Shown piece after piece: positions 1 through 1,740 of a stretch of DNA of 6,229 bases. Position 1 is the stretch's first letter. Every line of letters starts with the position of its first letter. The position numbers and the translations under genes are program-made. The DNA is from Thermococcus sp. (GTDB lineage: Archaea; Methanobacteriota_B; Thermococci; Thermococcales; Thermococcaceae). The DNA lies in assembly GCA_027023165.1 (NCBI GenBank), contig JALVWX010000244.1, positions 1 to 6,229 of the forward strand, in the 5' to 3' direction. The notes beneath the pieces were generated by a model. The model was not told the DNA's origin. It did no database searches and worked only from the letters and a program-made list of their open reading frames with translations.

Positions 1-503
1 AAAATCCAGTGGCATAGAGTTTTTAGGTAGTCCTCTTTAAGCTCATTTTCTAAAGTTTTAATAAAAGCTCCTGCTGTGGCTATCCAGTCGATAGATTCCA
101 ATTCAAATTTTTTGTCGGTAATGAAATCTTTTAAGGTTAGAATTTTGTTTTCATCTTCTATTTTTTCGTCCAAACTGATTGGGATATGTTTTTGAAGGGT
201 ATCAACCTTTCTAAGGTAATCTATAATTAAGCCATTTATTTTTCTGATGAAATAACCGGAGGTAAATCTGTCTTTGTTTTCTAAAAACTTTCGCTTATTT
301 TCCTCTTTCAATAGCCAAAGAAAAAAGTCTTGTGTAATTTCCTCCGCAAGATATTCCCAGCTTTGATAGTCCTCTTGGGGGAAATAGCTTCTAACCTTCT
401 GAGCAACTATCTTTTTGATGAATAGGTAATAATGTTTTTTGCTTTTATCGGGTTTATCGCTTTTTAAAATTTCCCAAACTAAATCCTTGAGGGTTTTATC
501 CAT
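1..503 (-). CDS. Sigma-70 family (ECF-like) RNA polymerase sigma factor, C-terminus outside window
   Basis: The reading frame opens with ATG at 503-501 and stays open to the left edge, giving 167 residues without a stop. Residues about 24-100 look like sigma region 2: a helix ending in EEITQDFFLWLL (54-65) matches the usual 'D.vQetFl.l' core-binding helix, and SGYFIRKINGLIIDYLRK (82-99) matches the 'F..wl..Ia.N...D.lRk' helix that recognises the -10 element. A linker starting PISLDEKIEDE (108-118) follows, then what looks like the start of region 4 (about 137 onward); its helix-turn-helix would lie beyond the edge. There is no region 1 or 3, as in group 4 (ECF) factors. The role would be to redirect RNA polymerase to a dedicated regulon. 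The start is well set by AGGAGG six bases upstream, lying inside the end of the preceding gene, so translation is probably coupled. The neighbouring gene is a plausible anti-sigma partner. The family call is fairly sure; the regulon is unknown. Confidence 0.83.
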   Translation of the reverse strand, partial: MDKTLKDLVWEILKSDKPDKSKKHYYLFIKKIVAQKVRSYFPQEDYQSWEYLAEEITQDFFLWLLKEENKRKFLENKDRFTSGYFIRKINGLIIDYLRKVDTLQKHIPISLDEKIEDENKILTLKDFITDKKFELESIDWIATAGAFIKTLENELKEDYLKTLCHWI

Positions 504-957
504 TATTATCCTCCTTTTTCAGGCAAAACTTTTTTAATTTCTCGAGATTTTCACAGCAACCGCAGAATTTACCAATAGTTTCCATTTGGAATTTGTTTAA
601 AACAATTTTTTCATATTCACCCTTTCGGTTGCGAAACAGATAAACTTTCTCATAAAAGGTAAAATCTTCGCACCCTTCTTTCCGACAAAGGGTTAAATTG
701 ACGCTCTTTTGATTTCCTTTCGAGGTGCTCGATAAAAATACCACAACAAACGTATCACCTTCATACCAACAACTTAAAAAAGGTCTCTGTTTCCTAATTT
801 TGTCTTTGGCGAAATAAAAATTTTTTCCGGTTAATCTTTCCACTTCTTTTAAGTTTGTGCCTAACCAAAGGCAAATTTTTTCTTCCAAAGACCCTTTTGA
901 GACTCTTTTTAAAAGGTCGTTAAAGACATCTTGGTAGATATCTTTTAAACTTTCCAT
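496..957 (-). CDS. Cys-rich protein with MazF/PemK-like core, candidate anti-sigma partner (CalpT-like)
   Basis: This 153-residue soluble protein has no signal peptide or membrane segment. Residues 1-45 look helical. From about residue 47 it reads as a MazF/PemK-type beta barrel: KQRPF (56-60) corresponds to the 'RP' strand of MazF, EGDTFVVVFLSSTSKG (66-81) to the strand and 'TTQSKG' loop of E. coli MazF, and FYEKVYLFR (101-109) to the 'ladqvksi' strand. MazF catalytic Arg29 would be R58 and Thr52 would be S76, so RNase activity is uncertain. Eight cysteines (29, 63, 91, 96, 132, 134, 135, 145), including C-x4-C and CGCC, suggest metal binding or a thiol switch. The gene overlaps the sigma gene by 8 bases, so the two are made together. 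A MazF homologue that holds an ECF sigma is known as CalpT; this protein is clearly shorter than I recall for CalpT. There is no good ribosome site at the ATG. That it is a gene is fairly sure; the fold is moderate; the anti-sigma role is inference. Confidence 0.6.
   Translation of the reverse strand: MESLKDIYQDVFNDLLKRVSKGSLEEKICLWLGTNLKEVERLTGKNFYFAKDKIRKQRPFLSCWYEGDTFVVVFLSSTSKGNQKSVNLTLCRKEGCEDFTFYEKVYLFRNRKGEYEKIVLNKFQMETIGKFCGCCENLEKLKKFCLKKEDNNG
510..515 (-). promoter_or_regulatory. Shine-Dalgarno AGGAGG for the sigma-factor gene
   Basis: A perfect AGGAGG sits six bases before the sigma-factor ATG and is embedded in the last codons of the MazF-like gene (its Lys-Glu-Asp codons). It fixes the start of the sigma gene and suggests terminating ribosomes reinitiate there. 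It is one of only two strong ribosome sites in the window. Confidence 0.85.
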
Positions 958-1056
958 TCTTAATAAGATAATTAAACTTAATCACCACCCTTTAAGCTGT
1001 TTAAAAGTGTTGTAAAACCCCACACAGGTTTAAACAATGTATTAAATTCCCTACAC
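958..1056. promoter_or_regulatory. Divergent intergenic region with repeated TTTAAAC motif
   Basis: This 99 bp separates the leftward MazF-like/sigma unit from the rightward DUF2202 gene and must hold both promoters. It is AT-rich and contains the 8-base palindrome GTTTAAAC (1028-1035) plus a second GTTTAAA (999-1005). On the minus strand TTTAAAC therefore occurs twice, 29 bases apart. A TATTAA -10-like element (1040-1045) lies 11 bases before the DUF2202 ATG, which has no Shine-Dalgarno, so that transcript could be nearly leaderless. No convincing -35 element was found on either strand. Confidence 0.4.
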
Positions 1057-1740
1057 ATGGAACTAAAAAGATTTGCAAAAACCCTTCCGGGGATACTTTT
1101 TGCCCTCGCCCCCCTAACGGGGTTTGGAATAAATAACTTTCACTCCTACGGGGGGACGTATCACTACGGAACCCCTTACGGTCTCTACTACGTCGAAAAC
1201 CTACCCAAACAGAGGTTGGGCGAAAAGGAGAAAGAGGAACTCCTCTATATGAGGGAGGAGGAAAAACTGGCGAGGGATGTCTATTTGACCCTATACCGCA
1301 AGTGGAGGCTTCCAATCTTTAGAAATATCGCCCGCTCCGAGCAGAGACATATGGATATGGTCGGCGTCCTGATAAAAAAATACGGACTAAAAGACCCGGT
1401 AATAGACCGCGTGGGTGTATTTACCAACAAGCACATTCAGGAGCTATACAACAAATTGGTCGCCGAAGGGGAAAAATCCCTCATCGACGCCCTAAAGGTG
1501 GGGGCGCTTATAGAGGAGCTCGACATTGCCGACCTTAAAAAGGCTATGGCGAATACCGACAACCGCGATATGCGTATAGTTTACGCCAACCTGATGAAGG
1601 GCTCCAGAAACCACCTTAGGGCTTTTGTCCGCCTTTTGAGACGCTTCGGCTACGACTACACCCCCAAATACCTACCTAAGGAGGAGTTCGAAGAAATAGT
1701 TTCCACACCTATAGAGAGGGGTTTTATCCGCAACCCCTAA
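1057..1740 (+). CDS. Exported ferritin-like DUF2202 protein
   Basis: The 227-residue protein starts with KR (4-5) and a hydrophobic stretch at 9-24, consistent with a signal peptide or N-terminal anchor; there is no lipobox cysteine and the cleavage site is unclear. A Tyr/Gly-rich segment follows (28-45), then a full DUF2202 domain (about 54-195), a four-helix ferritin-like fold. Family hallmarks are the EEEKLARDVY helix (67-76), NIARSEQRHMD (90-100), GVFTNKHIQELY (120-131), the VGALIEELDIADL helix (148-160) and the GSRNHLRAF helix (182-190). The Glu and His residues on these helices (E67-E69, E95, H98, E153/E154, H186) are the likely di-metal ligands. The substrate of this family is not established; an iron or redox role at the cell envelope is inference. 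The gene stands alone: divergent from the sigma unit, convergent with yicC, and closed by its own terminator. No Shine-Dalgarno precedes the ATG. Family call very sure, function unknown. Confidence 0.92.
   Translation: MELKRFAKTLPGILFALAPLTGFGINNFHSYGGTYHYGTPYGLYYVENLPKQRLGEKEKEELLYMREEEKLARDVYLTLYRKWRLPIFRNIARSEQRHMDMVGVLIKKYGLKDPVIDRVGVFTNKHIQELYNKLVAEGEKSLIDALKVGALIEELDIADLKKAMANTDNRDMRIVYANLMKGSRNHLRAFVRLLRRFGYDYTPKYLPKEEFEEIVSTPIERGFIRNP

Follow-up and report, generated by a model that had tools for sequence, protein, structure and literature searches.

A predicted MazF-fold protein encoded at the head of Calp operons of type III CRISPR signalling

The contig JALVWX010000244.1 of assembly GCA_027023165.1 (6,229 nucleotides, analysed as a whole and referred to below as the window) begins with two overlapping genes, one for a small MazF-like protein, designated here as A, and one for a sigma protein resembling extracytoplasmic function (ECF) factors. 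In the Calp system, cyclic tetra-adenylate (cA4) from Cas10 activates CalpL, CalpL cuts CalpT, and CalpS is released, as described in the available parts of PMC11417357 and PMC12751052; these two and PMC11229360, again in the parts available, describe Calp as a three-protein system. The question raised by the locus is which Calp component, if any, A represents. The original prediction held that the pair forms a Calp-type module in an Aquificota-like genome, that A is a CalpT relative that may lack the cleaved C-terminal part, and that CalpL, expected in front of the pair, is either absent, so that another trigger would be needed, or located past the left edge. Our analysis indicates that the pair opens a Calp operon, part of type III CRISPR signalling, which is truncated at the left edge of the window, and that, judged from sequence, A is a near-constant fourth Calp gene in the phylum surveyed, separate from CalpT.

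Gene order around the pair in related genomes

Both open reading frames (ORFs) and their 8-base overlap were recovered as predicted, on the minus strand (Table 1), and the overlap likely provides translational coupling. When contigs were scanned with A, one relative with an 89% identical A was found in an Aquificales draft genome (G001, locus L001). Its contig stops 76 codons into the third gene, after A and CalpS. CalpL and most of CalpT lie on a second contig of G001, the end of which shares 127 identical bases with the end of the A-CalpS contig, and because of this exact match the order in G001 is read as A-CalpS-CalpT-CalpL. In this genome the PADLOC model CRISPR-Lon matches CalpL at an E value of 3.5e-85, Csx1 and Cas1 genes are located near CalpL, and Cmr2 and Csm1 matches over the cut-off are found elsewhere.

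We then searched 136 genomes of the phylum of G001 (inferred to be Aquificota, and reached via this nearest relative) with the sigma protein, and obtained matches in 33 genomes. Where the surroundings were uncut, the order was A, sigma, a protein of about 260-320 residues and a protein of about 460-560 residues. In a Sulfurihydrogenibium-type locus (L057), the fourth gene matches the CalpL of the PDB over its length (E 0, 1064 bits), and the last 76 residues of the 271-residue third gene product match the solved CalpT10 (E 2.8e-43). These PDB matches identify the sigma gene as CalpS, the third gene as CalpT and the fourth gene as CalpL. Downstream of this operon, cmr1, cas10/cmr2 and cmr4 each scored over the NCBIfam cut-off and a cmr3 match scored under it. 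The PADLOC models HTH, CRISPR-T and CRISPR-Lon match CalpS, CalpT and CalpL, respectively. Of the first 33 loci, 32 have CalpT and 30 have CalpL, with the absences falling at contig ends, and every locus with all four genes showed the order A-CalpS-CalpT-CalpL. An apparent CalpT-CalpL fusion in one region was rejected, since the ORF had been read through a run of N.

The window sigma ORF is 95% identical to the G001 protein and falls into the same family as the CalpS of L057; by family profile and identity, its product belongs to the CalpS family, as originally predicted. General domain models recognise it poorly. Pfam gave Sigma70_r2 at E 0.02, under the curated cut-off, and the full-length relative in L001 (230 residues) matched the NCBIfam model sigma70-ECF at E 2.3e-4, under the model cut-off. 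Across the CalpS family, Sigma70_r2 is matched more often than any other Pfam model (8/33 members, best E 2.8e-5), and a PDB sequence search with the window sigma ORF gave no meaningful match.

These results uphold the Calp-type assignment and the Aquificota-like source, with the full operon present in the relatives, and they revise the rest of the prediction. CalpL follows the pair instead of preceding it. The idea that CalpL is absent and that a different trigger is needed is very likely wrong, considering that the nearest relative has both CalpT and CalpL after its sigma gene and that CalpL accompanies most of the first loci. The fallback that CalpL lies past the left edge fits the gene order of the relatives; since G001 and L057 both show A-CalpS-CalpT-CalpL, the CalpT and CalpL genes of the window itself are most likely located just past that edge.

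Fold and conserved residues of A

A is predicted to have a MazF-type barrel fold. Two AlphaFold models of A match MazF toxins, and predicted fold and profile both place A with MazF, in agreement with the first description of A as a small MazF-like protein of about 18 kDa (computed, 18.06 kDa for 153 residues). Pfam listed no PemK/MazF family for the window A alone (E limit 10, with filters that drop most weak matches), a scan of 34 A1 members at E values up to 1 gave matches to 13 families, PF02452 (PemK) not being one of them, and PDB sequence searches with A or the A profile gave no meaningful match.

In order to count conserved residues, 74 A sequences were collected, of which 62 remained after removal of near-duplicates; those of L046 (broken), L103, L105, L109 and L110 were left out. 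These sequences were aligned by hhalign to PemK, for which 14 of 30 loci passed the ORF filter. The positions of the catalytic Arg-Pro and Ser/Thr of MazF are kept in all 62 non-redundant sequences, and the roles of the catalytic Arg and Thr/Ser in MazF/PemK have been described (PMC7354611). In addition, a set of four cysteines (Cys4) is near-invariant in A and specific to this family. A is thus similar to the MazF/PemK/Kid mRNA interferases (PF02452) in its predicted fold and in the catalytic Arg and Ser/Thr, whereas it differs from them in having no Pfam match, an extra Cys4 set, no antitoxin gene and a fixed place in a CRISPR-signalling operon. The ratio of nonsynonymous to synonymous substitution (dN/dS) between the window and its nearest relative was 0.15 for A and 0.11 for the sigma gene, and it ranged from 0.11 to 0.30 in five of seven A pairs (the five computable), indicating that gene A is under purifying selection.

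Among known defence families, A matches the PADLOC family PDLC01080 'C3a162', which is a catalogue entry only, described as 'Unknown function'. The E values were 2.3e-60 for the A of L057, 1e-16 for P0027 and 4.2e-4 for the window A, and three of the six A proteins scanned (L042, L065 and L105) gave no match at E limits of 0.1 or 0.001. This family reportedly stems from a 2019 survey of type III accessory genes.

CalpT is presumably a MazF homologue as well, so that two MazF-like proteins, each with the Ser/Thr kept, would be encoded in the same operon. They differ in that CalpT is a protein of about 33 kDa (PMC11417357, in its available part), the C-terminal part of which has been solved with CalpL (CalpT10), and has no Arg-Pro, whereas A is an 18 kDa protein with Arg-Pro. 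Residues were counted in 55 of 56 CalpT sequences, the other being a remnant without residues in the stretch examined. Arg-Pro was missing in 55/55 and Ser/Thr was kept in 54/54. The hhalign comparison of the N-terminal part of CalpT with PemK gave a score of 25.3 (P 0.004, probability 9%), and the direct comparison of the A and CalpT profiles showed no similarity (score 17.0, probability 0.6%). CalpT10 gave no match to the window A. We examined A as CalpT or a shortened CalpT and rejected it, because the operons that contain A carry CalpT as a gene of its own, further downstream, and direct profile similarity is lacking.

Occurrence, coupling and surroundings of A

Profile searches of the same 136 genomes gave A matches in 57 genomes, and CalpS matches in 57 genomes and 63 loci (65 rows, less two: the edge fragment G060:C131 and, for the gene split in G038, its second piece). 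Of these 63 loci, 62 have A immediately upstream of CalpS, so the survey of homologous pairs proposed at the outset shows conserved linkage, and A and CalpS are not a chance pair. Within the 62, the A genes of L056 and L105 were recognised by eye (unflagged by the search), that of L046 is broken, and some are cut by contig ends, including the partial A genes of L037 and L110. The sole CalpS locus without A (L097, genome G019) has CalpS, CalpT and CalpL; its CalpS begins directly after a homoserine-kinase-like gene (named by eye). Two loci contain CalpT and CalpL without CalpS (L096 and L107) and one contains CalpL alone (L106), and A is absent from all three, in which CalpL has possibly been put to another use. 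Away from CalpS, A was seen solely at two contig ends and in two remnants (L082, L091, L088 and L092). Eleven contig-end regions (L082, L091, L095, L098-L102, L104, L108 and L111) were excluded from presence/absence.

Four genomes (loci L065, L066, L067 and L068) carry two tandem A genes before CalpS, which in L065 share only 51% identity. A common gcvT-like gene (identified by eye) adjoins both the Calp start in G107 (L003 = L032, cut by a contig end) and the decayed operon in G108 (L092), which suggests recent loss of the Calp module in G108. Homologues of cas10/cmr were found in at least 34 of 82 fetched regions, using few seed proteins, seven of which were confirmed. Two regions that are not Calp (L112, 6284-7279; L113, 5747-6745) encode a protein of 331-332 residues whose SAVED part is common with CalpL; type III genes are present in both regions, and in PADLOC this protein scores best against 'CARF, 4 TMs' and SAVED_TM, with E values as low as 1e-97 and 8e-73. 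Outside the phylum survey, two A proteins and one CalpS, used to scan viral contigs, led to no confirmed relative, and tblastn gave zero matches for the A of L057 against plasmids and for the window A against phages. A protein search with the A alignment, which reached proteins sharing short words only, returned 13 proteins, and the two named ones are from Aquificota.

Adjacent genes overlap in 46 of 56 A/CalpS pairs, 29 of 55 CalpS/CalpT pairs and 43 of 52 CalpT/CalpL pairs; these counts take the start codon closest to the stop of the preceding gene, a choice that favours overlap, and one A-CalpS distance of +133 belongs to a broken A. A tree-distance test on 41 loci (omitting L046, L063, L067 and loci lacking all four complete genes) did not support CalpS as the partner of A and gave a moderate signal for CalpT; as all four genes travel together, we do not read either outcome as decisive. 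Upstream of A, an exact TATAAT is found within 35 nucleotides of the start in 13 of 42 loci, for example before L042 10848 and L047 9083, compared with 2/42 and 1/42 in the next two 35-nucleotide stretches; a shuffle control gave a mean of 2.0 and a maximum of 7 in 500, and some of the 42 loci are close relatives, so that the cases are not independent. This position suggests a housekeeping-type promoter with a very short leader or none, and with such a promoter, expression of the operon would come ahead of any release of CalpS. In the window, the operon promoter is presumably inside the stretch between A and the divergent DUF2202 gene, the upstream neighbour that had been correctly named before. 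DUF2202 also adjoins A in L001 (7219-7928), where it is split into two ORFs. The genes beyond it are not common to both: YicC and Hfq follow in the window, and a phosphoesterase-like gene and DXS in L001 (L001 genes named by eye).

Table 1. Positions of the Calp genes, conserved codons and neighbouring features in the window
Feature	Position	Strand	Evidence
Gene A, MazF-fold (predicted), first Calp operon gene, PADLOC family C3a162	496..957	minus	ORF; A-family profile, E 1.3e-31; alignment; fold; PADLOC
CalpS-type ECF-like sigma gene, 167 of about 230 residues, cut by the left edge of the window	3..503	minus	ORF; 95% identity to the G001 protein
Overlap of gene A and sigma gene, 8 bases	496..503	minus	ORF coordinates
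Arg58-Pro59 codons, aligned with the catalytic Arg-Pro of MazF	781..786	minus	62/62 A sequences; hhalign with PemK/MazF proteins
Ser76 codon, aligned with the catalytic Thr of MazF	730..732	minus	Ser/Thr in 62/62 A sequences; hhalign
Cys91 and Cys96 codons, first half of a putative metal site	670..687	minus	Kept in 60/62 and 61/62
Cys132 and Cys135 codons (C-x-x-C), second half of a putative metal site	553..564	minus	Each 61/62
Intergenic stretch between Calp operon and divergent DUF2202 gene	958..1056		
DUF2202 (ferritin-like) gene, divergent neighbour, outside the module	1057..1740	plus	Pfam, E 2.2e-65

Compared with known systems, the operon, as seen in the relatives, has the same sigma, anti-sigma and Lon-SAVED protease genes as the CalpS, CalpT and CalpL module of Sulfurihydrogenibium sp. 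YO3AOP1, and it differs from that module, as described in the available parts of the sources, in the extra gene A at its head, L057 included. What is apparently new here is a conserved, apparently catalytic fourth gene of predicted MazF fold heading the Calp operon. A second module, CCaCalp, is one that we take to be comparable to that of Sulfurihydrogenibium sp. YO3AOP1. Our literature search found no fourth Calp gene and no MazF-type Calp effector in the available parts of the papers covered, and the original Calp and CCaCalp papers were outside this search, so a prior description is possible. In their available parts, PMC11417357, PMC12751052, PMC11229360, PMC12409355, PMC12830947 and PMC13148439 make no mention of a fourth Calp gene, the last three do not name CalpT, and only PMC11417357 of the six mentions MazF.

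Proposed role of A and alternative explanations

An RNase is the best reading of A because the catalytic pair is conserved, and A is tied to the Calp module because of its place before CalpS and its joint absence with CalpS. We suggest that A may be a MazF-type endoribonuclease and the second output arm of Calp, held inactive until CalpL destroys CalpT, a proposal for which we consider the chances evenly balanced. In this scheme, A would be co-translated with CalpS, and in the resting Calp complex its activity would be blocked by CalpS, by CalpT (the MazF-like protein without the catalytic Arg) or by both. When CalpL destroys CalpT, A would be released or made more strongly, and activation of Calp would both redirect transcription and cut RNA. 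As to the restraining partner, gene coupling and joint absence point to CalpS, and tree distances lean to CalpT. A bolder version, which we put forward tentatively, is that Calp has four parts, two of which are MazF-fold proteins put to opposite uses: CalpT, having lost the Arg, would cage the sigma factor, A would be the RNase effector, and one cA4 signal would free both, with the sigma factor and/or CalpT as a stand-in for the antitoxin.

The alternative that deserves most attention, although we regard it as rather doubtful, is that A is a second regulator of CalpS, namely a non-enzymatic MazF-fold sigma binder acting as a co-anti-sigma factor, a chaperone or a zinc/redox gate via Cys4. The frequent overlap of A with CalpS, the absence of both where CalpT and CalpL or CalpL alone persist, and the near-invariance of Cys4 would all suit such a regulator. 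Moreover, CalpT would show that a MazF fold can act as an anti-sigma factor, if it is the MazF homologue that we take it to be; its anti-sigma role is described in the available part of PMC11417357. However, a pure binder leaves the invariant Arg-Pro of A unexplained, when the anti-sigma factor CalpT lacks it in every sequence counted, and the tree-distance test does not favour CalpS as the partner.

It is improbable that A is an RNA- or metal-binding accessory of the type III effector and not of Calp itself. The cas10/cmr homologues in many of the fetched regions would be expected from such an accessory, but A directly precedes CalpS even at loci with no cas10 match in the vicinity, and L107 lacks A despite having CalpT, CalpL and a cas10 match. 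Still less probable is that A is a plain MazF toxin, belonging to a stand-alone toxin-antitoxin or addiction unit whose site in the operon is incidental. The MazF fold and catalytic residues agree with this idea, as does the occurrence of canonical PemK/MazF genes in 19 of 61 phylum genomes sampled, but no antitoxin ORF is present beside A in the window, where its neighbours are the divergent DUF2202 gene upstream and CalpS downstream. Furthermore, Cys4 is specific to the family of A, A heads all but one of the CalpS loci and occurs without CalpS only at contig ends and in remnants, and among the 57 genomes with an A match, A with an antitoxin away from Calp was never seen. Least credible of all is the original reading of A as a shortened CalpT homologue, acting as the anti-sigma factor of a CalpL-free signalling pair, which has in its favour that a small MazF-like protein overlaps the sigma gene and against it the separate downstream CalpT, the lack of direct A-CalpT profile similarity and the CalpL of the nearest relative.

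As the head gene in 62 of 63 CalpS loci, L057 included, A has to be taken into account when the effects of CalpS release are assayed. Should A be an RNase, Calp would couple transcriptional reprogramming with RNA cleavage, and CalpT, without the catalytic Arg, together with A, which keeps it, would represent a toxin fold recruited twice into one CRISPR signalling operon. If the four-part arrangement is true as well, Calp would be a toxin-antitoxin-derived CRISPR switch.
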